Positions 7,956 through 64,000 of a stretch of DNA of 64,000 nt are shown here, piece by piece. The stretch covers positions 1,469,041 through 1,533,040 of the forward strand of contig NZ_CP087952.1 of assembly GCF_028752835.1 (NCBI RefSeq). Direction: 5' to 3'. Positions within the stretch are counted from its first letter, which is position 1; the number at the start of each line of letters is the position of its first letter. Under the pieces are notes generated by a model that saw only the letters and a list, made by a program, of their open reading frames with translations, was not told the origin of the DNA and did not search any database. This DNA comes from Desulfosarcina sp. BuS5. GTDB taxonomy: Bacteria; Desulfobacterota; Desulfobacteria; Desulfobacterales; BuS5. The position numbers and the translations under genes are program-made.

Positions 7956-8843
7956 TTATGGATTTAGATCAAAAGGCGTAAGACTCTCAAAACCATCTTC
8001 TGTAACCAGGATGGTCTGTTCAAACTGTGCGGAGAGTGAACCGTCCGCAGTAACTGCTGTCCATGCATCTTCAAGTATTGTTAACTCTTTCCTGCCAAGG
8101 TTGATCATCGGTTCTATAGTTATTACCATGCCTGGCGTCAATACAATACCCTCTCCCTTTTTTCCATAATGGGGGATCTGTGGAGGTTCATGGAAACCCA
8201 GACCTACTCCATGCCCTACAAATTCCCTGACAACGGAGCATCTGTTTTTTTCAGCATATTCTTGAATAGCCCAGCCTATATCTCCGATAGTGTTTCCCGG
8301 CTTCACGGCTTTAATTCCCAGACGAAGAGATTCCTTGGTTACAGAGACAATTTTTTTTGCGTTTTCACCTGGAGTCCCGACAAAGAATGTTTTGTTTGTA
8401 TCGGCATAATATCCGTTTAAAATGGGTGTTACATCCACGTTTACAATATCTCCATCCTGTAAAACACGTTTTCCGGGAATGCCGTGGCAGATCACCTCGT
8501 TAATAGAAACGCAGACACTTTTCGGGAAACCACGGTAATTTAAAGGAGCAGGTATCGCGCCGTTTTTTATGGTGAATTCATGCACAAGCCGGTTGATATC
8601 GCCTGTCGTTATTCCCGGCCTTATTTTTGCTTCAACAAGGTCAAGGGTTTTTACAGCAAGCCGTCCGGCAGTTTTTATGCCCTCAATATCCGTTTTACTT
8701 TTAAGCCTGATATTATATTTTTTTAAATATAATTCCTTTATATTTTTTGTGGGCTGGAATTTTTTGCCGAAGCAGCACTTTTTAAATTTAAGCCCGCTGC
8801 CGCATGGGCAGGGATCATTCCGCCCGATTTTTATATTTTTCAT
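7956..8843 (-). CDS. map: type I methionine aminopeptidase with N-terminal SEC-C zinc motif
   Basis: Removes the initiator methionine from new proteins. Residues 1-25 hold a SEC-C motif ([16 protein letters not shown]), a zinc knuckle seen on some MetAPs and thought to help ribosome association. The pita-bread fold follows with all five metal ligands: D137, D148, H211, E244 and E275. It starts with ATG after a gaggaag. The gene is divergent from the HD-GYP regulator, with 224 bp between them. Confidence 0.95.
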
Positions 8844-9067
8844 TCAATATCTTCCTCTTGATTTGTTTTTTGGATAATGCTTGTTGAATAATTTCCAGAA
8901 GAAATTATATTAATATATTAATAAAAATTATATTAAATAGTGTTGAAAAATAAGCAAGAAAAAAAGATAATAGACATCTTTTTTTATTTGGTATCCATTT
9001 ACGGTTAATTGTAAACTGTGAGCGGATGCGCTTGGTTAGGAACTGAGGACGAAATAACTTATATATC

Positions 9068-10591
9068 ATGAATGATAAAGAACGAGAGACAATTCTCTTT
9101 GTGGATGATGAAGAGGGACTCGTGGAGTTGGCGGGTGAATATTTTCGGCGCAAGGGCTTTAGACTGTTTACGGCAAAAAACGGAGCAGAGGCTGTTGAAA
9201 TTTTAAAACATGAGAGCATAGACTGCTGCTTTACCGATCTTAATATGCCGGGCATGGATGGCCTGGAACTTGCCGGGTATATCAGGCAATTGGATAGTTC
9301 TATTCCCGTTATTGTGGTTACCGGTTATCCTTCGCTCGACAGCGCTGTCAACACGTTGAAAAATGGTGTCGTCGATTTTCTGGTCAAGCCGGTAAGGTTC
9401 AGTATGCTGGAGGCCTGCCTTGGACGTGTTTTGCGGGAACGGCGATTATTTATAGATAATATTTTTTTGAAAAAAAAGCTGGAAGGCAAGTCACGCTTAG
9501 AGGCACTCAACCGTGAATTAACAAACAAGGTTGAAGAGCTCAATACTTTAAATATGATAATGAGCAATCTGAGCTCCATAGATGCAAGTTCAGATATTTT
9601 TAAATGTGTGACGGATTTGGCTACGGAAATAACCAATGCTGATGAATCAAGGTTTTATGTAATAAATGATGATATTCAACAACCCTTTCAGGTAGCTGCT
9701 TCTTGCGGTTCTGCCGGTGAAATATGTGATGATGGTTTGGATGATGTTGCAGAGCTTTTAATGGAGACAGTGAATGATAAAATACCGTTTCTTGTTGCTG
9801 AAAATAAAAATGTACGTGGGCTGCCTGAAAAAATTCTCTCTTTTATGGCAGTCCCTCTGAAAATTCGTGAAAGAGTTTTTGGAATATTGGTGCTCCATGT
9901 TATTGGTGGAGATACCCGTTTTGATAAAAAAGATCTTTTTTATATGTCTTTTTTGACTATGAATGCCGCCTCTTCAATAGAAAACATAGCGCTTTACGAT
10001 AATATTTTTGATAATCTTTTTTCGACTTTATACGCTTTTGTCCAGGCTCTTGAAGCAAGGGATCCCTATACCAGGCAGCATTCGGACAGGGTGGCGCGAC
10101 TCTCTGTGTCCATAGCCGGGGAGATGGGATGTTCAAAGGAAGAGATGGATATTATAGATTTTGCGGGACGGCTTCATGATATCGGCAAAATCGGAGTGAT
10201 GGATAAAGTGCTTCTTAAACCCGGCAAGCTAACGGATGAAGAATTTGATATGATAAAAAAACATCCTGTTATAGGGGCGAAAATAATAGGGCAGTTAGGA
10301 ATGTGGGACAGGGAACAGGAGATTATTAAATATCACCACGAACGTTTTGACGGAACCGGATACCCTGAAGGATTAAAAGGAGAAAAGATACCCTTTCTTG
10401 CCAGGATACTTGCAGTTGCAGATGCTTTTGATGCAATGGATTCTGACAGGGCATACAGAAAAAAGATGGAGATTGAAAGGATAATGGATATTATTAATGA
10501 AGCGGCCGGTACACAGTTCGATCCGGATGTTGTAAAAGTTTTTCAAAAGTTATATAAACAAGGTAACATTCAGCAAACCAAAAAGGAATAA
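9068..10591 (+). CDS. response regulator with GAF-like and HD-GYP (c-di-GMP phosphodiesterase) domains
   Basis: 507 residues in three parts. Residues 1-125 form a receiver domain with the phospho-acceptor D57 (FTDLNMPGMDG) and K at FLVKPV. Residues about 150-310 form a coiled linker and a GAF-like sensor. The C-terminal part is an HD-GYP domain (DPYTRQHSDRVARLS, RLHDIGKIGV, HHERFDGTGYPEGL) with all expected metal ligands. HD-GYP enzymes hydrolyse cyclic di-GMP to GMP. The cognate kinase is not visible. It may share a transcript with def, which starts 10 bp later. Confidence 0.92.
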   Translation: MNDKERETILFVDDEEGLVELAGEYFRRKGFRLFTAKNGAEAVEILKHESIDCCFTDLNMPGMDGLELAGYIRQLDSSIPVIVVTGYPSLDSAVNTLKNGVVDFLVKPVRFSMLEACLGRVLRERRLFIDNIFLKKKLEGKSRLEALNRELTNKVEELNTLNMIMSNLSSIDASSDIFKCVTDLATEITNADESRFYVINDDIQQPFQVAASCGSAGEICDDGLDDVAELLMETVNDKIPFLVAENKNVRGLPEKILSFMAVPLKIRERVFGILVLHVIGGDTRFDKKDLFYMSFLTMNAASSIENIALYDNIFDNLFSTLYAFVQALEARDPYTRQHSDRVARLSVSIAGEMGCSKEEMDIIDFAGRLHDIGKIGVMDKVLLKPGKLTDEEFDMIKKHPVIGAKIIGQLGMWDREQEIIKYHHERFDGTGYPEGLKGEKIPFLARILAVADAFDAMDSDRAYRKKMEIERIMDIINEAAGTQFDPDVVKVFQKLYKQGNIQQTKKE

Positions 10592-10601
10592 GTATGGTGT
10601 T

Positions 10602-11111
10602 ATGGAAAAGCTTGAGATTTTAACATATCCTGATAAAAGTTTACGCAATTTATCAAAACCAGTAGAAAATATAGATGGGAAAATTATCGGCCTTATAGAT
10701 AGCATGACAAATATCATGTACACATCCGACGGGGTCGGCCTGGCTGCCATACAAGTCGGCATAGAAAAAAAGATTATTATTTATGATGTTGAGCAGAATA
10801 ATGGAAGCAGAGATTTACAGGTGCTGATTAATCCGAAAATCATCTCAATGGAGGGAGAAAAAGTATCGGAGAATGAAGGTTGTCTAAGCCTGCCGGATTT
10901 AAGGGCCAATGTAAAACGCGCTGCATCAGTCTTTGCTAAAGGGCTCGACAGGGAAGGGAATTCCCTTGAGATTGAGGCTGAAGGATTGTTATCTGTGGTG
11001 CTGCAGCATGAGATTGATCATTTGAATGGAGTCCTTTTTATAGATCATCTTAGCGCTTTAAAAAGGAATCTTTATAAAAAGCGTGTGAAAAAAAAAATGA
11101 AAAAAGGATAA
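10602..11111 (+). CDS. def: peptide deformylase
   Basis: Removes the formyl group from the N-terminus of new proteins. All three motifs are intact: GVGLAAIQVG (residues 44-53), EGCLSLP with metal ligand C94, and QHEIDH with H136, E137 and H140. 169 residues is normal. It sits directly before fmt, the classic def-fmt pair in which one gene adds and the other removes the formyl group. Confidence 0.96.
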   Translation: MEKLEILTYPDKSLRNLSKPVENIDGKIIGLIDSMTNIMYTSDGVGLAAIQVGIEKKIIIYDVEQNNGSRDLQVLINPKIISMEGEKVSENEGCLSLPDLRANVKRAASVFAKGLDREGNSLEIEAEGLLSVVLQHEIDHLNGVLFIDHLSALKRNLYKKRVKKKMKKG

Positions 11112-12098
11112 ATGCCCCAAAAAAATAAGATGGGAAAAGACAAGATAGAAAAAAATAAGATAGAAAAAATTGTTTTTATGGGAACTCCTGATTTTGCAGT
11201 CCCGTCCCTGAAAGCTCTTAATCAGAATGGTTATGAGGTATCTATAGTTGTAACCCAGCCGGATCGCCCGAAGGGACGGGGTCGCAAGATAATACCGCCT
11301 CCCGTGAAATCTGCTGCTTTAAGTCTGGGATATGATATAGCTCAGCCGGCATCGGTCAGGACAGATGAATTTGCTGAACAAATTACGGCTATTAACCCTG
11401 ATCTTTTTGTTGTGACTGCATTCGGCCGGATACTCCCTGAAAATATCCTTGCCATACCAAGGATAGGAGCGATCAATGTCCATGCCTCCCTCCTTCCGAA
11501 ATATCGTGGTTCAGCTCCGATACAATGGGCAATAATCAATGGTGAAAAAAAAACGGGTGTTACTACCATGCTGATGGATAACGGCCTCGATACGGGCGGT
11601 ATCCTTTTGAAAGATGAAACGTTGATCCTTCCTGGGGACACATCATCCATACTGCATGACCGCCTTGCTGAAATGGGGGCCGTGCTGCTTATAAAAACAC
11701 TCAGGAGGATTGAATCGGATGGTTTAAAGCCTGTTCCCCAGGATGATGCTATCGCCACTTATGCGCCATTATTAAATAAGAAAGACGGTTGTATAGACTG
11801 GAAATTGCCGGCTGAAAGCATAGAATCGTTTATACGCGGTGTAACCCCATGGCCGGGAGCTTTTACATTTCACAATGATAGACGACTCAAGATATTTAAA
11901 GCCATAGCGCTGAGAACTGATATTGACGAAAATCCCGGCAGAGTAATTAAGAGTTTTCCTGGTGAGCTGATCGTGGCAACCGGAAAAGGCGCCCTCTCGA
12001 TTTTTGAGATTCAGAGCGCATCAGGCAAGCGTCTTTCCATAAGAAATTTTTTACAGGGGAATCATATACCTCCCGGGACAATGCTGGGTTTAATTTAA
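11112..12098 (+). CDS. fmt: methionyl-tRNA formyltransferase
   Basis: Formylates initiator Met-tRNA using 10-formyl-tetrahydrofolate. The core begins at IVFMGTPDFAVPSL. NVHASLLPKYRGSAPIQW contains the catalytic Asn and His, and MDNGLDTGGIL the Asp region. The ATG abuts the def stop and adds a 17-residue lysine-rich leader; the ATG at 11130 or the one at 11178 could be the true start. C-terminal beta-barrel tRNA-binding domain is present. Confidence 0.95.
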   Translation: MPQKNKMGKDKIEKNKIEKIVFMGTPDFAVPSLKALNQNGYEVSIVVTQPDRPKGRGRKIIPPPVKSAALSLGYDIAQPASVRTDEFAEQITAINPDLFVVTAFGRILPENILAIPRIGAINVHASLLPKYRGSAPIQWAIINGEKKTGVTTMLMDNGLDTGGILLKDETLILPGDTSSILHDRLAEMGAVLLIKTLRRIESDGLKPVPQDDAIATYAPLLNKKDGCIDWKLPAESIESFIRGVTPWPGAFTFHNDRRLKIFKAIALRTDIDENPGRVIKSFPGELIVATGKGALSIFEIQSASGKRLSIRNFLQGNHIPPGTMLGLI

Positions 12099-47815: not shown

Positions 47816-49701
47816 ACAGTACGATCGCATCAAGGCGAATTCTAACAATATGTATTTACAGGATATTTATGCTTTTTTAAAAATAGATGGGAGACAACCA
47901 GCGGTCCTCTCGTGCCAAGATAAATCCGAATCGTTGGGATAAGACACAAGGTCTTTGAAACTCGATATTGTTACCAAGTGGGTGCTCGGGAAACGGTTTG
48001 TTTCCTTCATCTCTGCAGGGCTTGCTCTGGCATTGATGTTAAGATAGTCCCACCTGACTAAAGACTAACCAGCAGGTCAGTAGCGAAGTCCACAGGTAAA
48101 CCCGGTAACGGGAGTCTGGAGCTGGACGGAGCAAGATTGCAGGCTCTGTATTGAGCCCCGAAAAATGTATGGTTGTGGTCATTGTGATAATCCTGCTTGC
48201 AGGAAAAAGCCGACGCTTTGGAGACAGCGGAAGGCAGCAGTCCTGAATATGCTAAGGCAAGTATTCAGGACACCACCGGGGTCTTAGACCAGGGCATGTA
48301 CTCAAAGGGGTAGCTCGGGAACTTGGGAGACCCGGATGTTTCCTTGGGTAAAAAGAACGGTAACAGGAAATCCAGCGCAAGCGAAATCCCGGCGTTGCAT
48401 AGGAATGTCCCGCCTTGCAACGAGTCTGCCATTGGCAGAAACACAAACATTAAAAGATGGGCGATACAAGGTATCAGGGGAGGATAGCGAAGAGCGAACG
48501 AACCTGAGATAAACATTCGGAAGTCTTAGCAGATCATAGTACCGATGATTAAGAATTGAACTATCTTGATCGGAAAGGTGGGGAAGTGATGCCCAAGCGA
48601 CCCACTGCAGGGAAGGTGAAGCAGGGTATAACGTTTTTTTGGCAGGAATTATGGGAGATACACAGATGTCACAAACCATATCAACAAAAAGCCGAGAAAT
48701 TGCAAGAACGGTCGCTTGCAATTCCAGACCGATAGAATGGGGACAACCACCGGTGTTAACAGGTGGGTCATCCCTTATCAAAATCGAGCTGCTTGCTCAA
48801 AGTAATCCTGAACTGGTATTTACATCAGTAGTCCATCGGATAGACTTTGATTTACTGAAACAATCCTTTCGTAAAATTCGGAAAAGCAAATCTGCAGGAG
48901 TGGACAAGGTTACGGCAAAGGAGTATGCCGAAAATCTTGATCAAAACCTCTATAATCTGTATGAACGACTGCGGAGAGGACAGTACGTTGCGTCTCCTGT
49001 AAAGCGTATCTGGATAGACAAGGAAGGAGGGAAAAAGCGTCCAATTGGCATACCTGTACTTGAGGATAAAATTGTCCAGAAAGCAGCAGCAGCCATATTG
49101 AATGTCATATTTGACAGGAATTTTTACAATTTTTCCCATGCATTCAGAAAAGGTCGGAGCCAACACATGGCAATCAAAGATTTACGTGAGCAATGCTTGA
49201 AGCAGAATATCAGCTGGATAGTAAGCGCAGATATTACAGGACTATTTGACAATATTAATCACGAGTTACTTAAAGACATGATACGTCGGAGAGTAAGTGA
49301 CGGCGGAATGATTCGCCTGATAGGGAAGTGGTTGAATGCAGGCGTAATGGAGGAAGGCAACCTGACGTACTCTGAAACGGGCACTCCACAGGGAGGAGTA
49401 ATTTCCCCTGTGCTCAGTAATATCTTTCTTCATTATGTTTTAGATGACTGGTACGTGAAAGAAGTGATCCCCCGGATGAAAGGGAGATGCTCCATCATAC
49501 GCTGGGCGGATGATTTCATCCTCGGGTTCGAGTATGAAAAAGACGCATTGCGTGTCATGGATGTATTACCCAGGCGGTTCGAACAGTTCGAGCTGTCACT
49601 TCACCCGGAAAAGACAAAACTGATTCGATTTTCCAAACGCATTAGCGGAAAGGGAAACGGGACGTTTGATTTTTTAGGGTTTACATTTTACTGGTCAAAA
49701 T

Positions 49702-51009
49702 CAGTAGTGTCCGGTTAAGTTTTTGCATATAGCATTTGCTCTTTGATAATCAGATTATTAGACCATACGTTTTTTTCGTCAGTACGTAATTCGTTCTGGA
49801 TGGTATTTCTAAGCTGACGAATCCTCTTTATTGATACAGGTTCATTAAACTGTTCATGGCAGTATATGGCCATAAGCAGGTAGGTTATTAACCCCGCAAG
49901 GATTTGAACCATCAGGCCATATCTACTGTGAGCAATCAAGTGGTACACTTTTAAATGTTTCTTCCACCATTTGAAAAAAGTTTCGATATCCCATCTAAGC
50001 TTATAAACGGTTGCAACCTGCTCGGCTGTAAGATCATAACGATCAGTTGCCACAAAATATTTGACACCGGCAATTTTATAACCAACCAGTCGAACCGGCT
50101 TTCTGGTCTGGTTTACCCCAGGAGTGCCAAGAAGAACCACAGCATCATAAAAAATATAGCTGTCGGGATCAACAGGCTGCTCTTTGATAATAGTTCTTGT
50201 TGTTTTCGCTTTGATGCGGCAAACAAAATGTTTTTTTTCATCCTGAAGAAGATCAAAATCCTTATGTGATTGATACCCCCGATCCATGATTCCTGTTTGG
50301 CCTTTTGTAAGGATAGACCTGACAAAGGGGCGTTCAGCGCCATTTCCATTTGTCAGATGAATTTTTATAGGAATCTTGCGATTGACATCAAAGCCGAAAT
50401 GGCCTTTTGCTTTTTTAGCGCCTTTTCTGTAATCAGCCCAGTACATGGACAGAACTGCATCAATTAAAGATCCATCAATGGAAACGAGTTCACCGAGATC
50501 TGAATAATTTGATGGTAAAGCATTTTGTGCCTGGCTGCAAAGAGCTTGAAAAACATATTCAAGCTGTTCAAGCCCTCGAGAATTGATAATTTCGGAAAAA
50601 CTGCTACGACTGATCCCTCCATCTGGAGCGACACATTCTTTGGCAAAATCGTCTTCTTTAAGGTGTTGAATAAGATCACGAGCTGATTCATGTTCTTGTA
50701 GATGGAAAAATATCAGTGCGTGAAGCTGATCTTCAAAAGTCATTTTCAATGGCCTGTGACCTCGGGATTTAAGCTGTGGCGTGTCAGGAAAAATCTTTTG
50801 CAAAGGTTTGAGAAATCGAGCATGAGATTGGGGATTAAAATTCTTTTTTGGGATATTGAATATGTCCATTTTTGTCTTAACTCCTTGTTATAATTATATT
50901 TTATAACAAAACGATAAAAAATTTTTATTTGGTTTGTCAAGTAAAAAATGAACATTTTTCTAATTTTTTTATCCCATATAACATGCAAAAACCTAACCGG
51001 ACACTACTG
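49702..51009 (-). mobile_element. IS4-family insertion sequence, copy 2
   Basis: 1308 bp, same inverted ends as copy 1, with a 9-bp target duplication ggtcaaaat at 49693-49701 and 51010-51018. It differs from copy 1 by one missing base near the right end and very few substitutions. Confidence 0.96.
49715..50869 (-). CDS. IS4-family DDE transposase (copy 2)
   Basis: 384 residues, identical to the copy at 16418 except for one D to N change in the C-terminal VWSNNLIIKEQ. DDE motifs and the YREK signature are intact, so it is probably functional. Confidence 0.93.
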   Translation of the reverse strand: MDIFNIPKKNFNPQSHARFLKPLQKIFPDTPQLKSRGHRPLKMTFEDQLHALIFFHLQEHESARDLIQHLKEDDFAKECVAPDGGISRSSFSEIINSRGLEQLEYVFQALCSQAQNALPSNYSDLGELVSIDGSLIDAVLSMYWADYRKGAKKAKGHFGFDVNRKIPIKIHLTNGNGAERPFVRSILTKGQTGIMDRGYQSHKDFDLLQDEKKHFVCRIKAKTTRTIIKEQPVDPDSYIFYDAVVLLGTPGVNQTRKPVRLVGYKIAGVKYFVATDRYDLTAEQVATVYKLRWDIETFFKWWKKHLKVYHLIAHSRYGLMVQILAGLITYLLMAIYCHEQFNEPVSIKRIRQLRNTIQNELRTDEKNVWSNNLIIKEQMLYAKT

Positions 51010-51422
51010 GGTCAAAATCATTAAAAGGGTACATGGTAATAAAGAAAAAGACGGCAAGAAAGCGTTCAAGCCGTTTTATGAAGAGAATATGGATATGGTG
51101 CAAGGATAACCGTCATAAGCCAATGGCCGAGCAGTATGAGATTCTTTGCAGTAAACTGCGAGGTTTTTACCAGTACTTTGGAGTAATAAGTAACTACAAA
51201 GTGCTGGAAGTTGTGTTTGAATATACTGAGAAAGCATGGCGTCGATGGTTAAGCCGAAGAAGTCACAAGGGCGAAGTAATGTTCGAGGACTTGCGCACAA
51301 CATACCCACTGCCATTACCCAGAATAGTCCATAATATTTGATGCCGTAAGGGCTGCAAAGTTATACGCCAAACGGGGTGTCGCCTGTTTGGTTGATAATC
51401 CGGTAAAAAGGATTTGAACCGA

Positions 51423-51490
51423 GGAACCGTATGAGGGAAATCTTCACGTACGGGTCTGTAGGGGGGGCGTCGGGTAACCGATGCTCCTAC
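51423..51490 (+). ncRNA. group II intron domains V and VI
   Basis: ccgtatgagggaaatcttca and on to cgtacggg forms the catalytic domain V hairpin (stem, gaaa tetraloop, bulge). The next hairpin gtaggggg...ctcctac has an unpaired A in the 3' strand (ggtaaccg), the expected domain VI branch point. The intron therefore ends at or near 51490. Confidence 0.8.
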
Positions 51491-52137
51491 CTGGACTGTG
51501 TTAGGTATGCGCGAATAAACCGGGCCAGTGAGTCGATATCTTCCTCCACGCCCCAAGCTTTGGCGCGACCTGATGGATTGCCGGAAAGATCTATCGTTTA
51601 CGTTCGGTTTTTTTCTCAGGGGTGCTTTTGTCTTGTTTAATCTCACGACTGTACCCTGTCCCGATAGGATCGACAAAAACCAGATCGGTGAATGCCAACC
51701 AGCTTTTCGGATTTTCCACAATACGTGCCGGCATTGGCGGCACAGTGCCGTCTTCATTGAAAACAACACGTTGCGGCCCCATCGCCCCAATATGAAGGTA
51801 TGCGGATGCCGCACCCGGACCGCCGTTAAATACAAACGTAAGCGGCCGCTTATCCTGGCCCTTTTGTTGGACACAATAAGATATGTAAAATATCCGACCG
51901 ACCGGTTCTGACTGTTCATTTTGGACTGTGATTGAAGCTGCAGTGGCCGTGTATTTTATTTTTTTATTGTCTATCTCGATAGAATGCTGTGTAGCCGAAC
52001 GATTCGAGGCGTCCAACACCGCGGTGGCACCATTCAGAGCAGAAGGCGCTGTTTTCGGTTCTTCCTGTGCATACGCGCCCGCAGCAGGTTGAAAAAAGCA
52101 ATATTATACGGAAAAAAGAATGATAATAATCCACCGA
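51491..52137 (-). pseudogene. S10-type serine carboxypeptidase-like gene, broken
   Basis: The largest piece (51591-52019) reads IFYISYCVQQKGQDKRPLTF then VFNGGPGAASAYLHIGAMGP and FVDPIGTGYSR, the N-terminal third of an S10 peptidase. After a frameshift the sequence continues AWGVEEDIDSLARFIRAYLT and is then cut off by the intron before the GESYG nucleophile. At the 5' end a signal-peptide-like stretch ending AYAQEE is also out of frame. So at least two frameshifts plus truncation. It lies just downstream of the HPF-sigma gene and may once have belonged to the island. Confidence 0.8.
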
Positions 52138-52138
52138 A

Positions 52139-53209
52139 TCATTCGGGTCCCCCGTTCCTGAAATCTGAAAGCAGGTCACCGGTCTGAGCTTCAAATCCCG
52201 CCTCCAGCAGTCTTTCTCGAACATAATGATTGGCCTTGCTGATCCGGGCCGTAACGGTGGGCAGATCGACATCCAAGATGCTTGTCATTTCTTCCTCAGC
52301 GATATCCTCAAACTCATGCAGCATCAAAGCACGGCGCCAGGCGATGGGCAGATCCTTTAACAAGCGAAGCGTATACCCTACCTTTTGATCGTCACGCGCG
52401 CTTGCAGCAGGGGTTTCTGAGGCCTCGCCGGCAATCACATCTTCGATGCGCAGCAGTTCATCCGGCTGCCAGAATTCATAAAATTCTTCACCGGCCATGC
52501 TTTCGGTTTGATCCGCAGGATCAAGCAACACCGGCTCCTCCAAGGGAACCATTTCACCGAAGGTCCTGCTTGCCTGCACTTCTTTGTCAAGCACCCTATG
52601 CATTTCCTTGAGCATGCGCAGGTACGCCGCATGGCTGTCCATGCCTGCTTCCCAATCAGCGATTACAGCTGCCACGACTTCGCCCACGACATCCTGCACC
52701 GTGGGGTAATCGGGGGGCAAATCACCCTGACTATGCAGGAAGGCAAGTTCCCTTTTCACCGCACGTTCGAGATTAGGCAAAAGTGTATCAGTGAGTGCGG
52801 ATGCATCATTGACGCCACCGGTCGGCAGCGTATTTCGATGCGCCCTATAGTTTTCAAGACGCGACAGGCGCGTCTGGCGTTTATGGGACTCCTGTCGGCG
52901 CACACGATCAGTGTGATTATTAACCTTTCTGAGAAGTGCCTTGACTGCCCCGTCAATGGCTATCTCCAGATTTTCTGCACTGCTTTCCGATACCAGGATC
53001 GTTTTTGGCGGCACATGCATGCGAAGTTTGATTCGATAAGCATCTCGGCCATCACCCCGCTTTCTGATAACGGCGGCTATTTCGCTGCGTTCTAGCCCGA
53101 TACCCGTCAAACGAGGTACAATGTGACGATTAACCCGGTTTTCGAGCGTCGTCTCGATATGTTTTTGATCGACTGGATCACTCTTTACAAATGTAAAACT
53201 CAGTTTCAT
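52139..53209 (-). CDS. HPF/RaiA ribosome-hibernation domain fused to sigma-70-like regions
   Basis: 356 residues. Residues 1-100 match the S30AE/HPF fold (MKLSFTFVKSDPVDQKHIET, AAVIRKRGDGRDAYRIKLRM, IDGAVKALLRKVNNHTDRVR), which binds the small ribosomal subunit. Residues about 145-215 (NLERAVKRELAFLHSQGDLP, VQDVVGEVVAAVIADW) resemble sigma region 2, and residues about 278-335 (LLKDLPIAWRRALMLHEFED, EEEMTSILDVDLPTVTARIS) match sigma-70 region 4. The joining of translational dormancy and transcription modules is unusual. It is the last intact gene of the leftward chaperone series, with aagggggg before the ATG. I infer a stress regulator of the island; no activity is proven. Confidence 0.75.
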   Translation of the reverse strand: MKLSFTFVKSDPVDQKHIETTLENRVNRHIVPRLTGIGLERSEIAAVIRKRGDGRDAYRIKLRMHVPPKTILVSESSAENLEIAIDGAVKALLRKVNNHTDRVRRQESHKRQTRLSRLENYRAHRNTLPTGGVNDASALTDTLLPNLERAVKRELAFLHSQGDLPPDYPTVQDVVGEVVAAVIADWEAGMDSHAAYLRMLKEMHRVLDKEVQASRTFGEMVPLEEPVLLDPADQTESMAGEEFYEFWQPDELLRIEDVIAGEASETPAASARDDQKVGYTLRLLKDLPIAWRRALMLHEFEDIAEEEMTSILDVDLPTVTARISKANHYVRERLLEAGFEAQTGDLLSDFRNGGPE

Positions 53210-53325: not shown

Positions 53326-53745
53326 TTATGAGGCTGTCGTCACCGCAACGCGTGCCGGCCGGATCAGCCGCCCGTTGAGCAGGCATCCCTTCTGATGGAC
53401 TTGGGCCACAACATTGACAGGAAGCTCGCTGCTTTTCAGCGTCATAACGGCCTCGTGCCGTTCCGGATCAAATGGTTGCCCCTGTGGGTCGATGATTTCA
53501 ACGCCGAAATCCGCAAGCACCGCAGCCAGCTTACCCAAGGTCAGCTCAATACCCCGTCGCAGGCCCTCTGCATCAGCTTCACTGTCAGGGGCGAACAAGC
53601 ATACTTTCGGCGTCAGGATTCTTGCTCCGGGTCGCCCGGAGAGAGTATTGGTCAGCAGATCCATCCGGCGGGTCAGGTTCTCCAGATCCGCAAACGGATT
53701 TCGCCAGCCTATTGACGGTAAACCAAATAGATTTCTTGTAAGCAT
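53326..53745 (-). CDS. GrpE-like nucleotide exchange factor with Hsp20-like N-terminus
   Basis: 139 residues. Residues about 56-139 match the GrpE C-terminal half: EGLRRGIELTLGKLAAVLAD, then IDPQGQPFDPERHEAV, and the beta-wing NVVAQVHQKGCLLNGRLIRP. The long N-terminal coiled coil of GrpE is absent. Residues 1-40 (MLTRNLFGLPSIGWRNPFAD, LENLTRRMDLL) instead look like the start of bacterial Hsp20 proteins. So it is a short chimera. It presumably promotes ADP release from the island DnaK, but dimerisation may differ. Weak agga before the ATG. Confidence 0.7.
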   Translation of the reverse strand: MLTRNLFGLPSIGWRNPFADLENLTRRMDLLTNTLSGRPGARILTPKVCLFAPDSEADAEGLRRGIELTLGKLAAVLADFGVEIIDPQGQPFDPERHEAVMTLKSSELPVNVVAQVHQKGCLLNGRLIRPARVAVTTAS

Positions 53746-53801: not shown

Positions 53802-54368
53802 TTAGGTAGTTTTAACCTCGATTTGTTTTACATCCGATTTCGGAAGCGCCTTTCTCGGCATGGTCACTGTCAACACACCTTTTTTAAAGGAGGCATTGAT
53901 TTTGTCCTGATCCGCGTCCTCCGGAAGGGAAAGCACCCGCTGAAACGAGCCGTAGGAGCGCTCCATCCGGTAGTAGTTCTTTTCCTTCTGCTCCTTTTCC
54001 TGTTTTTTTTCGCCTCTGATGGTCAGGGTGTCGTTAACGATCTCCAACTTGACATCCTTTTCATCCACACCGGGTATCTCAACGGTAATTTTGTACTCAT
54101 TGTCAGTGGCGCCTAAATCCAGGGTGGGCTTCAGGATGCCGTCAGCCAGTCGCGGAAACAGAGGCTGGTCAAAACCGAAAGAGGACAGCCCGAACCCGCG
54201 GAATGCCTGATCGAAAAGCCGGTCGATCTCATGATGAAACTGCTGCAGTGGATGAGCCGGCACGCCGCCTTGATCTTTGGCGTTTTCGCGTTTCACCGGC
54301 ACCATTTTGCCAGCATCTTCTTCTTCCTTCTTGAACCAATTCCAGGGAATCCATTTTTTAATGTTCAT
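53802..54368 (-). CDS. small heat-shock protein, Hsp20 family
   Basis: 188 residues from ATG 54368, chosen for its aggaggt. Alpha-crystallin domain: ATDNEYKITVEIPGVDEKDV, KLEIVNDTLTIRGEKKQEKE, ASFKKGVLTVTMPRK. The C-terminus lacks a clean IxI motif but has VKQIEVK. It binds unfolding proteins without ATP and hands them to DnaK and ClpB, both encoded in this block. The 234-bp gap upstream (54399-54632) is AT-rich compared with the island and could hold its own promoter. Confidence 0.93.
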   Translation of the reverse strand: MNIKKWIPWNWFKKEEEDAGKMVPVKRENAKDQGGVPAHPLQQFHHEIDRLFDQAFRGFGLSSFGFDQPLFPRLADGILKPTLDLGATDNEYKITVEIPGVDEKDVKLEIVNDTLTIRGEKKQEKEQKEKNYYRMERSYGSFQRVLSLPEDADQDKINASFKKGVLTVTMPRKALPKSDVKQIEVKTT

Positions 54369-54632
54369 TGTGCACCTCCTATCGTTGAATGTTAACATTA
54401 TAAATAGCCTTTTGACAAAAAAGTAATGCTTAATATTTCTGTGTCAAGAGGCTTGGCAAAATCATCTTAGCATTATAAGTATCAGTAATATTAGTATAAA
54501 ATAATTATTATCGGAAAAATGGAGACAAAATATTGAGTTGCCGATTTCCGAAAAATAGGAGAATCAAAGCCCATAACTGGTCAGTAGAGACGAAAAGGTA
54601 ATGAAGCTAAAAGAAAGATTGTAGACGGTTGG

Positions 54633-54899
54633 TCAAAACAGCGGGCTTAACAAGTGCGCCGCCGCGTTCACCAGCCGTGTTCCAGGCGGCAGCTGCTTAA
54701 AATCATCGGCCACAACCTCTGCGGCGTCAGACAGCAACCTGTCGAGCCAAGCCTCAATATCACGGTTTAATCCGGTACTGTGCACAAAAGTACTCAATTC
54801 GAAATTGAGCCGGAAACTACGAATGTCGAGGTTCGCGCTGGCGAGCCACGACAGCATACACAAGGCCTGGAGCACACCGGATGCGTTTATTTCGGCCAT
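54633..54899 (-). pseudogene. cardiolipin synthase (phospholipase D superfamily), C-terminal remnant
   Basis: 88 codons. ASANLDIRSFRLNFELSTFV and then RLVNAAAHLLSPLF match the extreme C-terminus of ClsA-type cardiolipin synthases just after the second HKD motif. Both catalytic motifs are missing. It probably marks a deletion between clpB and hsp20. Confidence 0.7.
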
Positions 54900-54992: not shown

Positions 54993-57602
<2,610 letters not shown>

Positions 57603-57629: not shown

Positions 57630-59524
57630 TTATGAAAGGGCTTTCTTGTTGAAATCCATGACGAGAAAAACACTTCCATTCTCATGGCTTTTTTTAGCAT
57701 CAGGATAGCGTTTGTTTAAAACGTGCAGCATAGCTTTGTTGTCGGCCAAGATGTATGCGGCAAATCCTTGAAAGTCGTTTTCAATGGCAAGTTTTTCCAA
57801 TTCATCCAGCAGAAATGATGCAATGCCTTGCCACTGGAAATCCTCCCGCACCACAAAGGCAACTTCCGCCCGGTTCTCCTCGGATTCCATATAGGTGCCG
57901 ATGGCCACGATTTCCTTGTTTCCCTTGTTGCGAACAAGGCCAACCAGCGTAATGTTTTTGCGGTAATCCAGTTCCGCCCAGTGGGCTTGCGCCATTTGGT
58001 GGGAAAAGATTTTAATCTTGCTGAAAAAACGCAAATAAACAGTCTCTTCCTTGAGTTTGTAAAAAAAGTTGCGATAGGCGATTTCATCGGATGGCAGAAG
58101 CGGCCGGACCGAAAGGGATTGGCCGCTTTTCAGCTTCACCCGGCTTTTGTATTTTTCGATGAACAGCAAATCCATAGCGGGAGGTGGCAGCTGATCCGGA
58201 AACACCAAATGGTGCCTTTTCGCGGTTTCGATGAGACCGGTCCTGAATTTGGGATGGGCGATCTGGGTCAACTCCACGGCCCTTTGGAAAATGCTTTTAC
58301 CCCGAAGTTGCGCGATGCCGTACTCGGTTACGACGAAATCCACGTCCGCTCTCAAGGTCGACGTGTCCGCTCCTTTGCTGAGATAGGGCACAATGCGCGA
58401 TTGGGTCTCCCCTTTGGTGGTCGAAGGCAGGGCGATGATTGAAAACCCACCCTTGGACATGGCCGCACCGCGAATAAAATTGGCCTGGTCACCCGACCCG
58501 CTGTAAAACAATTTGTCGATGGAATCCGAACAGACCTGGCCGGAAAGGTCCACTTCAAGAGCGGAGCTAATGGAAATTAATTTGTCGTTTCGCGCGATGA
58601 CAAGCGGGTCGTTTACAAAATCGGCTGACCGAAAATAAAACCGGGGATTTTTGTCGATGTAGTCATAAATCTTTTTCGTCCCCATGCAAAGCGTGGCCAC
58701 CGCCCGGCCCGGTAGAAAACTCTTGTTTTTGTTCGTGACAACCCCTTTTTCAAACAGCGGAATAAAGGCATCAGTGATCATCTGGGTATGGATCCCAAGA
58801 TTTTTTTTGTTATCGAAATGCCGGAGAATGAAGTAGGGCAGATGCCCGAATCCGACTTGCAACGTCGCTCCGTCATCAACCAGTTCCGATACGTAGTGGC
58901 CGATTCTTTCAACAACGGTTTCATCGGGCATCCGGGGAAGCGATTCCACCAGGGTTCCTGATAGGGAACCAGATAATCAATTTCATCGACATGGACAAAG
59001 CTGTCCCCCCACGTGGATGGCATATGGGGGTTCACCTGGGCGATAACCAAATCAGCGTTCGCGATCGCCGCTTTGGTGACATCCACGGACACACCTAGAC
59101 TACCGAAGCCGAACCGGTCAACGGGACTGATTTGAATCAAGGCAATCTCCAGCCCGATCTGCTTGATATCGAATAAATGCGGGATTTCGGAAAGATAGGC
59201 CGGGATATAATCCACTTTGCCTTCAAAGGCTGCCTGGCGCATCAAGTCGCTGACAAAGAAAAGCTTTAGGGAAAACCGCCTCCAAAAATCCGCATCGTCT
59301 ATATGGTCCGCGAGTGAAAAGGCATACATCTGGTAGATCATGGCATCCTGGATGCGATGATTGCATGCCATGGCCTTGACCAGCCGTTGCGGTTCGCCGC
59401 AGCCTGAACCGATGAAGATGCGGCTGCCGTTCTTGATCATTTCAACCGCTGATTCGGCGGTTGTCAATTTTTCGGGACAAAGCTGTTTTAATTCCCGAAT
59501 AGTTGTATCCATCGATCCTTGCAT
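57630..59524 (-). pseudogene. acetyl-CoA hydrolase/transferase family protein with C-terminal GNAT domain, frameshifted
   Basis: Two overlapping frames form one protein of about 630 residues. The 5' part (59524 to about 58940) carries the N-terminal CoA-transferase domain (SRIFIGSGCGEPQRLVKAMA, NPHMPSTWGDSFVHVDEIDY). The 3' part starts in another frame at about 58950 with VESLPRMPDETVVERIGHYV and continues through DGATLQVGFGHLPYFI and TEYGIAQLRGKSIFQRAVEL to a GNAT acetyltransferase domain (residues about 270-435 of that part; EVAFVVREDFQWQGIASFLL). One lost base near 58940 explains the break; assembly error is possible. The fused form is known and may link acyl-CoA use to protein acetylation. 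Confidence 0.8.
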
Positions 59525-59615: not shown

Positions 59616-60218
59616 TCACTTGCGCAATTTCAGCCCCAGCATCGTGAGTACGATGCCGGAAAACAGGGCATACGCGCCAATAAGCCACCCGGCGGCAAGA
59701 AAGGATTCAACTGGTCGCGTCAGGAACATCCAAAACACGAAAGCCCCGAGAGCGACCGAAAGTGCACCGCTTAGAGCCAACCAGAATTCACCTTTGATTT
59801 CCTTGCGCAGGCGAACGACCGCCGAAATCTCCAAAACTCCGGTGAAGATCGACCAGATTGCGACGCTGGCCCACATGAAGGTGGCAATCACCAAGGTGGC
59901 AACCAGTGGCCAGACGATCACCAGGATTCCGGCCAGAATGCCAAGAACGCCGCTGAAGGCAAGCCAACCCCAGCGCTCATCCTTCCGGATATTGCGCACT
60001 GCTGATATGAGGCCGAAGGCGCCATCGACAAGCGAAAAGACGCCGAATACCAACGTGAATGCCAGTAACGCACCGGTCGGCATCAAGAAGGCCAGAACCG
60101 CAAAAATCAGAGACAGCGCCCCGCGCAAGACGAACAACCACCAATTACCGGCCAGCGAGCAGAAAGGCATTGCATTGCCGCTGTCTTGACTTCCAACCAA
60201 ATTATCAAAACTCATCAT
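59616..60218 (-). CDS. hdeD: HdeD-family membrane protein
   Basis: 200 residues with about six hydrophobic helices (WWLFVLRGALSLIFAVLAFL, LVFGVFSLVDGAFGLISAVR, ILGILAGILVIVWPL). This DUF308/HdeD family is linked to acid resistance in E. coli and recurs in mobile heat-resistance islands. ggaggtga precedes two adjacent ATGs; the second (60215) has the better spacing. Confidence 0.88.
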   Translation of the reverse strand: MMSFDNLVGSQDSGNAMPFCSLAGNWWLFVLRGALSLIFAVLAFLMPTGALLAFTLVFGVFSLVDGAFGLISAVRNIRKDERWGWLAFSGVLGILAGILVIVWPLVATLVIATFMWASVAIWSIFTGVLEISAVVRLRKEIKGEFWLALSGALSVALGAFVFWMFLTRPVESFLAAGWLIGAYALFSGIVLTMLGLKLRK

Positions 60219-60286: not shown

Positions 60287-60616
60287 TTACAGCCCCCGTT
60301 CCAACTCGCGGATACGGTTTTCCAGCATATTGATACGTTCCAACAGTTCAAGAACGACACCAACACCGGCATAGTTGACTCCCAGTGCATTTCGCAGGCG
60401 GATGATTTTGGCGATCAACGGTACCGCCTCGCTTTCAAAAAGCCATTGTTCCGGCGTTCCGCTCGTATCGATCGGATCAACCAAGCCCAGTCGCACAAAT
60501 CGATGGACCAGGCCCGGATGTGTTCGGCAGCGCACGGCCACCTCACCGATTCTCAGATAAGAGTGATCAGGTCCGGTGTGTTTCACCAGAACCGGTAGAT
60601 TTGCTCGTCTTTTCAT
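60287..60616 (-). CDS. cbpM: chaperone modulator CbpM
   Basis: 109 residues from the ATG at 60616, which has aaggag upstream; a TTG at 60667 would add 17 residues. LRIGEVAVRCRTHPGLVHRF then VRLGLVDPI is the MerR-like CbpM fold, and the C-terminal leucine-rich helix (LELLERINMLENRIRELERG) is typical. CbpM binds the J domain of CbpA and restrains it. It lies directly after cbpA. Confidence 0.85.
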   Translation of the reverse strand: MKRRANLPVLVKHTGPDHSYLRIGEVAVRCRTHPGLVHRFVRLGLVDPIDTSGTPEQWLFESEAVPLIAKIIRLRNALGVNYAGVGVVLELLERINMLENRIRELERGL

Positions 60617-60674
60617 GGACGTTTGTACTCCTTGGAACCTGTTTTTTAGTTTTTCCGATTCCCTCAAAACGACA

Positions 60675-61652
60675 CTACCTCGGATTGAAGGATGATACCT
60701 TGCTCAATTCCTCGAACAGTTGCCGTTCCTTTTTGGATAATTTTTTCGGAACCTTGATTTTCATCACCACATAAAGATCGCCTCGCCGCCCCTTGGGGTT
60801 GGGCATGCCCTTGGCGCGGAGTCTTAGTTTCTGCCCGCTTTGGGTACCTGCAGGGACCTTAAGGGTAACCGTTTCATCCAGTGTTTGGACATCGATTTGC
60901 GCTCCCAAGGCCGCCTCCCATGGGGTAATGGCCAGCTCGGTGTATAGATCATGTCCTTCCAGACGGAATCTGGGATGCGGTTCGATTTCAACCTTGAGAT
61001 ACAGGTCCCCGCTGCCGCCGCTGCCGCTTCCCTTGCCGCCCTGGCCCGAAAGGCGGATTTTCTGCCCAGACATGATTCCCGGCGGAATTTTCACATCATA
61101 ACGTTTTTCCCGGCTGGATGGGCTTCCATCCATTCCCGGCCCGGTGGATTGCATGGTGATGGTTTTGGTGCCACCGCCAAACGCCTCTTCCAGGGGTATG
61201 CGCAACACCGCCTCGTGATCGCTGCCGCGACGATTGATTGAAAAGGGCCGGCCGCCTTGGGCGCCCTGAACATTTTCATGGAACCGGCCGCCGAAAAGCG
61301 CTTCAAAAAAGTCGCTGTACTCTCCACCGTCCGAACTCCAGAAAAAGGTCTCCTCGGGGCCCTGTTGCCCCTGGCTAGAATTCGACCGGTGTTGCCAACC
61401 CGGTGGTGGCTGAAAATTGTCTCCCTGCTGCCAATTGCTGCCGAACTGGTCGTATTTTCCCCGCTTGGCCGGATCCTTGAGAACCTCATAGGCCTCGTTG
61501 ATCTCCTTGAATTTTTCTTCGGAGCCAGCCTCCTTGTTCAAATCCGGATGAAATTTACGCGCCAGCTTGCGATAGGTGCGCTGGATCTCGTCCTTGGATG
61601 CGTCGCGGGAAATGCCCAGGATTTCATAGTAGTCTTTATATTGAACGGCCAT
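60675..61652 (-). CDS. cbpA: DnaJ-like co-chaperone CbpA
   Basis: 325 residues. J domain with KDYYEILGISRDASKDEIQR and the HPD motif in ARKFHPDLNKEAG, then a Gly/Gln-rich linker and two C-terminal beta domains (RIPLEEAFGGGTKTI, LYTELAITPWEAALGAQIDV). The DnaJ zinc-finger repeats are absent, as in CbpA. It stimulates the ATPase of the adjacent DnaK. Confidence 0.93.
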   Translation of the reverse strand: MAVQYKDYYEILGISRDASKDEIQRTYRKLARKFHPDLNKEAGSEEKFKEINEAYEVLKDPAKRGKYDQFGSNWQQGDNFQPPPGWQHRSNSSQGQQGPEETFFWSSDGGEYSDFFEALFGGRFHENVQGAQGGRPFSINRRGSDHEAVLRIPLEEAFGGGTKTITMQSTGPGMDGSPSSREKRYDVKIPPGIMSGQKIRLSGQGGKGSGSGGSGDLYLKVEIEPHPRFRLEGHDLYTELAITPWEAALGAQIDVQTLDETVTLKVPAGTQSGQKLRLRAKGMPNPKGRRGDLYVVMKIKVPKKLSKKERQLFEELSKVSSFNPR

Positions 61653-61818: not shown

Positions 61819-63723
61819 TCAGCTTCGCTCGGTGAATTCGGCATCCACCACATCATCATCGCTACTTGCACCGTCAGCCCGGCCGCCGCCTTCTGAAGGC
61901 TGCCCGGCAGCGCTGCCTTGCTGTTGATATGCCGCTGCTCCGACCATGCTCAACGCCTGCTGCAGGTCGCTGGCGATCTGGATGTAACGCTGCTTGTCTG
62001 TATTTTCGTTTTTAACCGCTTCCCTGGCATCGGAGACGAGCTGTTCGCACCGTGATCTTTCATGCACCGGCACCTTGTCACCCATATCGGCCATCAACCG
62101 CTCCAGCTGATTGGCCAGGCTGTCGGTTTTGTTTCGGGCATCGATGGTTTCACGCCGCTGTTTGTCTGAGGCGGCATGCTGCTCGGCCTCCCTGACCATG
62201 CGATCCGCTTCATTTTTGTCCAGATTGGTTGATTCAGTGATGGTCACGGTCTGGGATTTACCCGTAGTTTCGTCCTTGGCGGTCACATTGAGAATGCCGT
62301 TGGCGTCGATATCAAAAGACACTTTGATCTGGGCAACACCACGCGGCGCAGGGGCGATGTCTTCGAGGCGGAAACGTCCCAGCACGCGGTTGTCCGACGC
62401 CATTTCGCGTTCACCCTGCAGGACGACGATATCCACCGCGGTCTGGTTGTCGTCGGCGGTGGAAAAGACCTCTTCCCGCCGGCAGGGGATGGTGGTGTTG
62501 CGATCGATCAGCTTGGTCATTACGCCGCCAAGGGTCTCGACACCCAGGGACAACGGGGTAACATCCAGCAGGACTACATCCTCCATCTCGCCCTTGATGA
62601 CCGCAGCCTGTATGGCGGCCCCAACGGCAACCACTTCGTCGGGATTCACGCTCATGTTGGGCTGCTTTCCACCGGTAAGCTTCTTGACCAACTCCTGAAC
62701 AGCCGGTACGCGGGTGGACCCACCCACCAGAATCAGTTCGTCGATGTCATTGGCCGTCAGTTTTGCGTCCGCCAATGCTTGCTCGATGGGTTTCATGCAT
62801 CGTTGAACCAGATCGTGGATCAAACTCTCAAACTTTGCTCGTGTGATCTTCTGGGTCAGGTGTTTGGGACCGGTCGCATCCGCCGTGATAAACGGCAGGT
62901 TGATTTCCGTCTCCACCGCCGAGGAAAGCTCGCACTTGGCCTTTTCCGCAGCCTCATACAAACGTTGAAGGGCCTGCCGATCCTTGCGCAGGTCAATACC
63001 GTTTTCTTTCTTGAATTCGTCGGCCACCCAGTCCACGATGCGTTTGTCAAAGTCATCGCCGCCAAGATGGGTATCGCCGGAGGTGGAGCGAACCTCACAC
63101 ACGCCGTCGCCCACATCCAGAACCGATACGTCGAACGTACCGCCGCCAAGGTCGAATACCAGCACAGTTTCATTTTTCTTCTTTTCGAGCCCGTATGCCA
63201 ACGCCGCCGCCGTGGGTTCATTGATGATGCGCAACACTTTGAGTCCCGCGATTTCGCCGGCGGTCTTGGTGGCCTGGCGCTGGGCGTCATTGAAGTAAGC
63301 CGGGACGGTGATGACCGCCTCGGTGACCTTCTCTCCCAAGTGGCTGGAGGCGTCGGTTACCAGTTTGCGCAGCACTTGGGCGGAGACTTCCTCCGGGGCG
63401 ACCTTTTTACCGCGTACGTCAAAACGGACCGCATCGCTGCTGTCTTTAACCACTTTGTAGGATACGATTTTAGACTCTTCATCCACCTCGCCCCACCTGC
63501 GGCCGACAAACCGCTTGGCCGAGTAGATGGTCGAATCCGGATTCATCACCGCCTGCCGCTGGGCTATTTTGCCCACCAGTCGCTGTCCATCTTCAGTGTA
63601 CGCCACGACCGATGGTGTGGTGCGAGATCCCTCACTGTTGGGGATCACCGCCGATTTGTCACCTTCCCAAACTGCGACGACCGAATTGGTCGTTCCCAAG
63701 TCTATTCCGATTGCTTTAGCCAT
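61819..63723 (-). CDS. dnaK: Hsp70 chaperone DnaK
   Basis: 634 residues. ATPase domain opens [20 protein letters not shown], with [20 protein letters not shown] and [15 protein letters not shown]; interdomain linker [18 protein letters not shown]; substrate domain and a short C-terminal tail ending in acidic residues. GGAGGG precedes the ATG. It heads the leftward chaperone cluster. A housekeeping dnaK-grpE-dnaJ set is expected elsewhere in the genome, since this one is paired with cbpA and cbpM. Confidence 0.96.
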
Positions 63724-63760: not shown

Positions 63761-63788
63761 AAATTATGGCATGTTCAATTTTTGTCAA
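63761..63788 (-). promoter_or_regulatory. sigma-70-type promoter of the chaperone island
   Basis: On the minus strand TTGACA (63783-63788), 16 bp, TAATTT (63761-63766), about 38 bp before the dnaK ATG. No CIRCE operator (TTAGCACTC-N9-GAGTGCTAA) is present, and no clear heat-shock sigma CCCCATNT box. Confidence 0.6.
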
Positions 63789-63896
63789 CAATAATCAGCA
63801 ATTCTAATTTTGGAAGGTTGTGGCACATCATATTGTAGCAACGCTATGCTTCATAATCTATATATAGATAAAAATATGCCATAATTAGAATTGCTG
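63762..63896. repeat. nested inverted repeats upstream of dnaK
   Basis: cagcaattctaatt (63796-63809) is inverted at 63883-63896, and aattatggcat (63762-63772) is inverted at 63876-63886; between them lies the palindrome atctatatatagat (63856-63869). The first pair brackets and the second overlaps the promoter, so a regulator site or insertion-element end is possible. 63897-64000 shows nothing further. Confidence 0.65.
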
Positions 63897-64000
63897 AACA
63901 ATAATAACATTACTTTTTTAATTTATGGCGTTATGTAATGAATCGGCGCTTGTTTTTTGTGCGCTTAGTCCTAAAAAAGGTCGCAGGCATATCAAAAACT

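Follow-up and report, generated by a model that had tools for sequence, protein, structure and literature searches.

Fusion of an HPF-type S30AE domain to an ECF-sigma-like body in a chaperone island of Desulfosarcina sp. BuS5: a homologue of tLST orf11

Introduction

At the end of a run of chaperone genes in Desulfosarcina sp. BuS5 lies a gene, here called P0001, whose product appears to join a domain of ribosome hibernation factors to a body resembling an RNA polymerase sigma factor. This raises the question of what kind of protein it is, where else it occurs, and what it could do beside chaperone genes. The gene is part of the window, which is the whole analysed stretch of 64,000 nucleotides (contig NZ_CP087952.1, positions 1,469,041 to 1,533,040). 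The original prediction had placed an S30AE domain at residues 1-100, followed by sigma region-2-like and region-4 modules, and had proposed that the protein couples translational shutdown to the transcription of stress genes. One protein made of two kinds of module, one for idling ribosomes and one for redirecting RNA polymerase, is a testable case.

Domain architecture and predicted fold of P0001

P0001 is an HPF-sigma fusion gene encoded at 52139..53209 on the minus strand, with the ATG at 53209 and a stop that ends at 52139, and comprises 356 amino acids. The plus-strand reading of 52139-53209 was ruled out by stops in frame. A chance fusion or a frame artefact could be ruled out as well, the domain order being identical in 35 aligned members of the family. 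The gene and its parts are:

52139..53209, minus strand: P0001, HPF-sigma fusion, homologue of tLST orf11 (ORF, Pfam, profile, model and fold matches)
52886..53209, minus strand: S30AE domain of the HPF/RaiA fold, residues 1-108 (Pfam and fold match to 4hei)
52835..52969, minus strand: long basic helix, residues 81-125 (model helix, charge count)
52562..52825, minus strand: sigma2-like helices, residues 129-216 (fold match to 5uxx over 129-343, residue counts)
52424..52561, minus strand: acidic linker, residues 217-262 (model pLDDT, charge count)
52457..52486, minus strand: signature EFYEFWQPDE, residues 242-251 (family alignment)
52190..52423, minus strand: sigma4-like helix-turn-helix domain, residues 263-340 (Pfam, NCBIfam, profile, charge and pattern counts)

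The profile searches agree with the proposed architecture in part. The S30AE domain (PF02482) is recognized at residues 17-103 with an E-value of 4.6e-6 and a score of 27.7 bits (cut-off 23.7), and is the only Pfam match of P0001 above its cut-off. Sigma70_r4_2 was found at residues 281-326 with an E-value of 0.0068, which falls short of its cut-off, and the best NCBIfam models of ECF sigma factors reach E-values of 3e-6 to 2e-5 over about residues 263-342, which is far below their whole-protein cut-offs. For sigma region 2 no Pfam match exists in P0001, and this part was placed by the predicted model. A receiver domain is absent from the Pfam matches of P0001 at E <= 1.

Structure prediction by AlphaFold (mean pLDDT 81, pTM 0.68) gave a model that starts with the beta-alpha-beta-beta-beta-alpha order of S30AE domains, the second helix being 45 residues long, and continues with a sigma2-like helical set, the linker and the sigma4 helix-turn-helix. 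The linker has a net charge of -13 and pLDDT values below 50 at residues 218-250 and 261-269. The long helix carries a net charge of +7, and a basic helix is found in all 35 members (net +2 to +11, mean +6.3). Residues 1-103 superpose on the HPF of V. cholerae (4hei) with a Z-score of 15.2 (1.3 A over 92 residues), and residues 129-343 on RpoE of B. quintana in complex with NepR (5uxx) with a Z-score of 14.3 (3.2 A over 159 residues). Further matches of the sigma half are SigW:RsiW (Z 11.3) and PhyR:NepR (Z 10.2), so that its best matches are sigma factors solved together with anti-sigma partners. Since Z-scores up to about 13 can reflect a common arrangement of helical proteins, the sigma2 assignment is based on sigma2 and sigma4 matching together and on the sequence. 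A Foldseek search of P0001 gave one match at E <0.001, the RaiA protein in 8rd8.

From P0001 taken by itself the claim of a sigma-like half is moderate, and it becomes firm through the family evidence. A profile of the 35 members matches sigma-E (1or7) with an E-value of 5e-14 and HPF (8uu4) with 1.7e-9 in the PDB; the sigma-E match comes mainly from sigma4, its separate stretch in sigma2 falling short of significance when taken by itself. At E <= 1, Pfam detects S30AE in 31 and Sigma70_r4_2 in 29 of the 35 members. Both halves of the original domain reading are thereby upheld, and P0001 is confirmed to consist of an S30AE domain of the HPF/RaiA type, a basic helix and an ECF-sigma-like body of the order sigma2-linker-sigma4.

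The chaperone island in the window

As predicted, P0001 stands at the end of a set of chaperone genes which all run in the same direction. The original list of these genes had omitted three members, namely the grpE-like half gene, the split acetyl-CoA hydrolase-like gene and the phospholipase-D-like remnant. The neighbours are:

53326..53745, minus strand: GrpE-like gene, only profile positions 83-164 of 165, the C-terminal half (Pfam)
53802..54398, minus strand: Hsp20, 51% identical to tLST sHsp20 (Pfam, pairwise comparison)
54633..54899, minus strand: phospholipase-D-like remnant, 88 amino acids (Pfam E 0.00039, below cut-off)
54993..57602, minus strand: ClpB, second copy in the genome, 57% identical to the other (NCBIfam, genome search)
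57630..59524, minus strand: acetyl-CoA hydrolase/GNAT-like gene in two overlapping frames (ORFs, Pfam of the 57630-58949 frame)
59616..60218, minus strand: DUF308/HdeD-like protein, 61% identical to tLST HdeD-GI (Pfam, pairwise comparison)
60287..60667, minus strand: MerR-type, CbpM-like gene (Pfam MerR_2, E 1.1e-14)
60675..61652, minus strand: putative CbpA/DnaJ-like co-chaperone, named by sequence reading and relatives (49% identical to a relative at locus L050)
61819..63723, minus strand: DnaK, second full-length copy in the genome, 58% identical to the other (ORF, 55% identical to an annotated DnaK)

Read along the minus strand the order is dnaK, cbpA-like, MerR/CbpM-like, HdeD-like, acetyl-CoA hydrolase/GNAT-like, clpB, phospholipase-D-like, hsp20, grpE half and P0001. 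The acetyl-CoA hydrolase-like gene, which has a C-terminal GNAT domain, is probably broken or mis-sequenced because it is spread over two overlapping frames. The phospholipase-D-like remnant is 33-37% identical to the corresponding ORF of the tLST loci. Elsewhere the genome contains a full-length dnaK, a clpB and three more grpE matches, and dnaK, clpB and grpE of the island are therefore second copies. Such second copies have been called a hallmark of TLPQC/tLST (PMC7685784).

Between 52000 and 64000 only one weak sigma-32-like promoter match could be identified on the minus strand, compared to a mean of 2.1 in shuffled sequences, and no CIRCE element was found there. Sigma-70 and terminator matches are at chance level. 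Upstream of dnaK (63762-63897) a 19-nt inverted repeat of 95% identity, with arms at 63795-63813 and 63879-63897, overlaps a second repeat of 14 nt; it is a possible operator.

P0001 is a homologue of tLST orf11

In tLST1 the gene orf11 is located between hdeD-GI and trx-GI (PMC8290217). A homologue of P0001 occupies just this place, between an HdeD-type gene and trx-GI, on a P. fragi plasmid and in E. coli G3/10, where it is annotated as hypothetical protein. P0001 and the E. coli orf11 protein share 35% identity over residues 64-347 (E 9e-56). Single tLST copies score weakly in Pfam: the Pantoea copy L043 shows S30AE at E 0.06 and no sigma match, and the copy L037 shows sigma4 at E 0.021 and no S30AE match. 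These weak scores are the likely reason why the fusion was not recognized. The model of L043 (pLDDT 78.6) matches RpoE with a Z-score of 14.3 and HPF with 13.6, though it is not independent of the P0001 model, as the underlying alignments overlap.

Annotators are partly aware of the sigma half, since RefSeq calls at least four C-terminal pieces of orf11 an RNA polymerase sigma factor (among the best 15 of 16 records; one is a partial pseudogene), and the Burkholderiales copies H9, H16 and H17 are labelled as RNA polymerase subunit sigma-28 or as sigma factor-like helix-turn-helix. The S30AE half is unnamed in the annotation of the database records examined. By megablast L043 finds a match in 15 of 5,426 complete E. 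coli genomes, which in four of them covers at least 80% of the query.

The tLST papers cited here give orf11 no function. Of 13 functional genes that were singly deleted in E. coli MG1655 lacZ::LHR, seven are described as required for resistance to heat or chlorine, and the list given there does not contain orf11 (PMC8407380). Deletion of orf11 is also described to leave the ratio of unoxidized to oxidized cells unchanged in a membrane-lipid assay. Expression of 11 of 16 LHR proteins has been reported (PMC7010813). In LHR2-type islands orf11 is described as split (PMC5383660), and many of the tLST copies carry it broken in two.

The island in the window resembles tLST or LHR islands in having an orf11 homologue near HdeD- and Hsp20-type genes. 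Within the window, which ends 277 bases beyond dnaK, it has no dna-shsp20-clpK core, and ClpB, not ClpK, lies near P0001. There is good support for the two folds, for the family and for the link to the tLST. The orf11 gene of these mobile heat- and chlorine-resistance islands thus has a concrete fold and a family.

A widespread, unnamed family

Relatives of P0001 were found at 58 loci of a collection of genome contigs and on one viral contig, which also encodes relatives of ClpK, Hsp20, DegP, Trx and KefB. Among plasmid records, 297 match in tblastn and 25 contain a single place that covers 80% of the query. A match was found in 32 of 395 genomes of the same phylum, the own genome included; 10 of these matches are long (own included), 21 are sigma4-only and represent ordinary sigma factors, and one covers residues 81-195. 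An earlier search of the own genome and 57 relatives had given 2 matches in 58 genomes, the own one and a sigma4-only match. Because so few related genomes match, the gene is scattered and not inherited with the order.

The alignment used here (A3) consists of P0001 and 34 of the 59 relatives (58 genome loci and the viral contig). Left out were 21 near-copies as well as L070, which is split, L080 and L081, which align in two frames, and L079, which matches residues 131-261 only and has no Pfam match at E 0.01. The signature EFYEFWQPDE of the linker is strongly conserved, E245, Q248, P249 and D250 being present in 35 of 35 members, an invariance that is partly by construction since the scans that yielded the 34 relatives used the QPD motif as their seed (in the viral scan as one of a pair of patterns). 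The motif is missing in the distant relatives L004, L006, L008 and L010, which were found by another route. In a tree of 42 sequences P0001 and tLST orf11 fall into one group of 13 with a support of 100/100.

The family is widespread and unnamed. It reaches beyond the tLST to GroEL-DnaK islands of Paraburkholderia, to Calditrichota and Chromatiales and to members of the phylum of Desulfosarcina sp. BuS5. Literature searches for the combination of S30AE and sigma found no description of such a fusion among the titles and abstracts of the matches listed. A phage origin of P0001 was set aside, as the phage collection gave no match at E 1e-5. A fold search of viral models gave S30AE-type and sigma-type proteins among the 50 matches listed, none of which superposes well over both halves.

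Linkage to chaperone genes

The original prediction had raised the question whether homologues of this architecture always neighbour dnaK, cbpA, clpB and hsp20 genes. Linkage to chaperone genes holds for a considerable part of the family, and it is not universal. A chaperone gene is nearby in 17 of 34 non-redundant relatives compared to 0 of 11 control stretches around ordinary ECF genes, and any tLST-type gene in 20 of 34 compared to 2 of 11, counted at 30% identity or more, so that a ClpK match of 25% in control L094 falls below the threshold. For all 58 genome loci the numbers are 37 and 42, respectively. The control stretches are 6-16 kb long and many loci end at contig edges; the reference set was built from the window, the tLST and the Paraburkholderia islands, and other stress genes could thus be missed. 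The 17 chaperone-linked relatives are not independent, since eight are from Burkholderiaceae and four are tLST copies. On the 42-sequence tree the chaperone label, set by hand, changes five times compared to 14.4 times in shuffles, which indicates a clustered linkage with several gains or losses. It is nevertheless real and above that of ordinary ECF genes.

Homologues away from detected stress genes, which had been named beforehand as grounds for refuting the original prediction, do occur in part of the family and include the nearest relative. For this relative (L026/L027, 65% identical) no chaperone match was found within the 10-kb contig; the genes upstream are of sugar-metabolism type, as named from sequence, and an S10 peptidase lies downstream. 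The eight distant members from the same phylum have a chaperone gene nearby in no case and a tLST-type gene in five, which is DegP in all five and comes from two genera. Strict operon control of the chaperones is ruled out by L026 and the distant members.

Some further loci deserve mention. In L085 of the same phylum (6447-11627) the HPF-sigma gene has a DegP/HtrA-type protease on one side and a DacZ-type diadenylate cyclase on the other, and a PpiC-type isomerase is encoded close by. In L069 from Chromatiales it follows a gene for a DUF1931 protein (4218-4661), and a similar ORF is found at the same place in L073 (3175-3621). Two contigs labelled as Desulfovibrio (L033) and Spirochaetia (L035) contain a tLST nearly identical to that of Pantoea, due to either recent transfer or contamination.

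The sigma-like half lacks promoter-contact patterns

According to the original idea P0001 would be a working ECF-type sigma factor, whose S30AE extension senses the state of the ribosomes and which switches on the neighbouring chaperone genes. The order and fold of sigma2, linker and sigma4, the chaperone linkage and the RefSeq label of some C-terminal pieces are in line with this. The residues by which sigma factors contact promoters are not. The pattern of the -35-reading recognition helix of sigma4 is present in 0 of 35 members and in 12 of 13 ECF controls, and the looser form [RY]AR in 4 of 35 and again 12 of 13. In sigma2, a WLYRIxxN-type pattern occurs in 0 of 35 members and 11 of 13 controls, and Q[ED]xF of sigma2.2 in 1 of 35 and 10 of 13, both after the patterns were loosened upon inspection of the control sequences. 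In its first version the sigma2.2 pattern had been present in none of the 13 controls and none of the 35 members, and the WLYRI pattern in 3 of 13 and 0 of 35. All of these counts are to be read with the patterns having been composed with the alignment already in view and the controls chosen by similarity to the family.

The mean net charge of sigma4 is -2.1 in the 35 members and +2.5 in the 13 controls. P0001 itself retains an R and a K in its recognition helix (TVTARISKAN), which is consistent with a working sigma factor. An acidic sigma2.2 motif (DVVxE at 173-177 of P0001) is kept in most of the family, with D or E at position 173 in 34 and D at position 176 in 33 of the 35 members; at the latter P0001 is an exception with G. 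Taken together, the sigma-like half of the family can probably no longer recognize promoters, to judge from these contact residues.

A scan for zinc-finger anti-sigma motifs gave one convincing adjacent gene among the family loci compared to 7 of 11 ECF control stretches. It is a zf-HC2 anti-sigma-type gene of the Calditrichota locus L067 (8874-9110, E 3.7e-8) directly downstream of the HPF-sigma gene. The remaining motif matches in family loci were rejected by eye as out-of-frame or unrelated ORFs. The L067 gene is the only direct pointer to a partner, and it would suit a working sigma factor as well. With the contact patterns missing in 35 of 35 members, a sigma4 that is negative on average, an orf11 outside the genes listed as required for tLST heat or chlorine resistance and relatives lacking detected stress genes, we consider a working sigma factor quite improbable.

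The HPF-like half

The surface of the S30AE domain gives a similar picture. Four columns of helix 1 are occupied by K or R in 31 of 31 canonical HPFs (the 30 best-scoring from the phylum search and the genome's own) and in only 9, 17, 17 and 40% of the family, a comparison which depends on the alignment; P0001 has E23, H29, P32 and G36 at these columns. Of the basic positions of helix 2 some are kept in the family and others are lost. The ribosome part may thus also be a relic, because the basic positions of helix 1 are lost.

These results bear on the possibility that P0001 is a hibernation-type binder of ribosomes or RNA, whose sigma-like half serves for structure or targeting only. Its best arguments are the S30AE domain as the sole Pfam match above cut-off and the basic helix in 35 of 35 members. 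They are set against the loss in helix 1, a separate ordinary HPF in the genome of Desulfosarcina sp. BuS5, and the finding that residues 181-356 are more alike than residues 1-108 in 14 of 15 comparisons with P0001. We regard such a binder as rather unlikely. The claimed coupling of translational shutdown to stress-gene transcription did not find support either, given the absence of strict promoter patterns, the K/R frequencies of 9-40% in helix 1 and the place of orf11 outside the needed genes.

Mosaic structure and selection

The similarity of P0001 and its nearest relative L026 changes along the gene. In 100-base windows their DNA is 45-61% identical up to residue 140; from about residue 185 onwards, across the end of the gene and into the S10 gene, the identity is mostly 83-94%. 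The rise from about 57% to 83% and more is spread over about 50 codons (52650-52810 of the window). At the amino-acid level the two are 42% identical in residues 1-108, 60% in residues 109-180 and 81% in residues 181-356, and the synonymous difference (pS) falls from 0.81 over residues 1-108 to 0.16-0.26 over residues 217-342. The simplest reading is a recombination within the gene between full-length homologues, which would have joined a front from the chaperone island to a resident back.

The gene downstream overlaps the end of P0001:

51496..52142, minus strand: serine carboxypeptidase-like (S10) gene, frameshifted and interrupted, intact in L026

The S10 gene region (47881-52142) contains an insert of about 3.6 kb, with a 37-base piece of S10 beyond it. 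ORFs of the insert, as named from sequence, are reverse-transcriptase-like (48639-49718) and transposase-like (49715-50869).

By a simple counting method dN/dS is 0.14-0.44 in seven pairs of other members and 0.25 for P0001 and L026, a single value that is hard to read due to the mosaic origin. The constraint is weakest in three close tLST pairs (0.38-0.44), and in lineages outside the tLST the gene is full-length with 0.14-0.23 in three pairs. To all appearance both canonical surfaces, for promoter and for ribosome, have eroded, whereas folds, basic helix and linker motif persist under purifying selection.

The weak constraint in close tLST copies would fit a dispensable passenger of stress islands without present function in most hosts, as would the absence of orf11 from the genes listed as required for heat or chlorine resistance in E. 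coli, its split state in LHR2-type islands and the broken S10 gene in the window. Purifying selection in the three pairs outside the tLST and the DegP neighbour common to five of eight distant members in two genera point the other way, and a mere passenger seems unlikely to us.

A possible sigma mimic

The loss of the promoter-contact patterns in a kept fold resembles PhyR, and for this reason we favour, tentatively and as a possibility which we would not yet call probable, a sigma mimic of PhyR-like logic that is tethered to an HPF-like module for binding RNA or ribosomes. Its mechanism we infer, whereas the two folds, the family, the homology to tLST orf11 and the frequent position beside chaperone or stress genes result from computation. 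The sigma-like half would bind a partner of sigma factors and not promoters; the partner could be an anti-sigma factor, with PhyR-like release of a real stress sigma factor, or the clamp of core RNA polymerase. The S30AE domain and the basic helix might place or gate the sigma-like half on ribosomes or on structured RNA; how free this half is would then depend on the state of the ribosome pool. In stress islands such a protein would be a fine-tuning accessory and not a master switch. The kept acidity of sigma2.2 and the PhyR logic point to different partners, because the core-contact region of PhyR is reported to be degenerate.

A more specific version is a single-chain switch, in which the S30AE domain together with the basic helix would attach to idle ribosomes or rRNA, thereby freeing or hiding the sigma-mimic half for capture of an anti-sigma factor or of the RNA polymerase clamp. 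As it stands this is a long shot. If true, the translation status would tune a stress transcription programme, by a switch that would have spread in the tLST and in other chaperone islands.

Comparison with known systems

The tLST orf11 protein shares the predicted two-fold architecture and the 13-sequence tree group with P0001, and relatives of HdeD and sHsp20 are common to the tLST and the island in the window. The islands differ in that the latter contains ClpB, DnaK, CbpA, CbpM-like and GrpE-like proteins, whereas tLST loci have ClpK, YfdX, Trx, KefB and DegP. With the HPF/RaiA (YfiA) hibernation factors P0001 has the S30AE fold in common; it differs from them by the lack of the basic positions of helix 1 and by its fusion to a sigma-like body. 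An extra domain in one chain with sigma2 and sigma4 is also described for ECF41, ECF42 and the ECF groups with N-terminal extensions (PMC8103513). However, in P0001 the extension is S30AE and the usual DNA-contact patterns are absent. A further parallel is PhyR of the alphaproteobacterial general stress response, which is reported to have a correct ECF fold with degenerate promoter and core-contact regions and to sequester the anti-sigma factor NepR (PMC8103513). Like its sigma-like domain, P0001 has an ECF fold without promoter-contact residues, and PhyR is the NCBIfam model with most members of the family (27 of 35 at E <= 0.01, followed by ordinary sigma models with 25). In contrast to PhyR, P0001 shows no receiver domain among its Pfam matches and carries an N-terminal S30AE domain instead. 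The family may thus be another case in which, as in PhyR, the sigma fold has been put to a use other than the reading of promoters.
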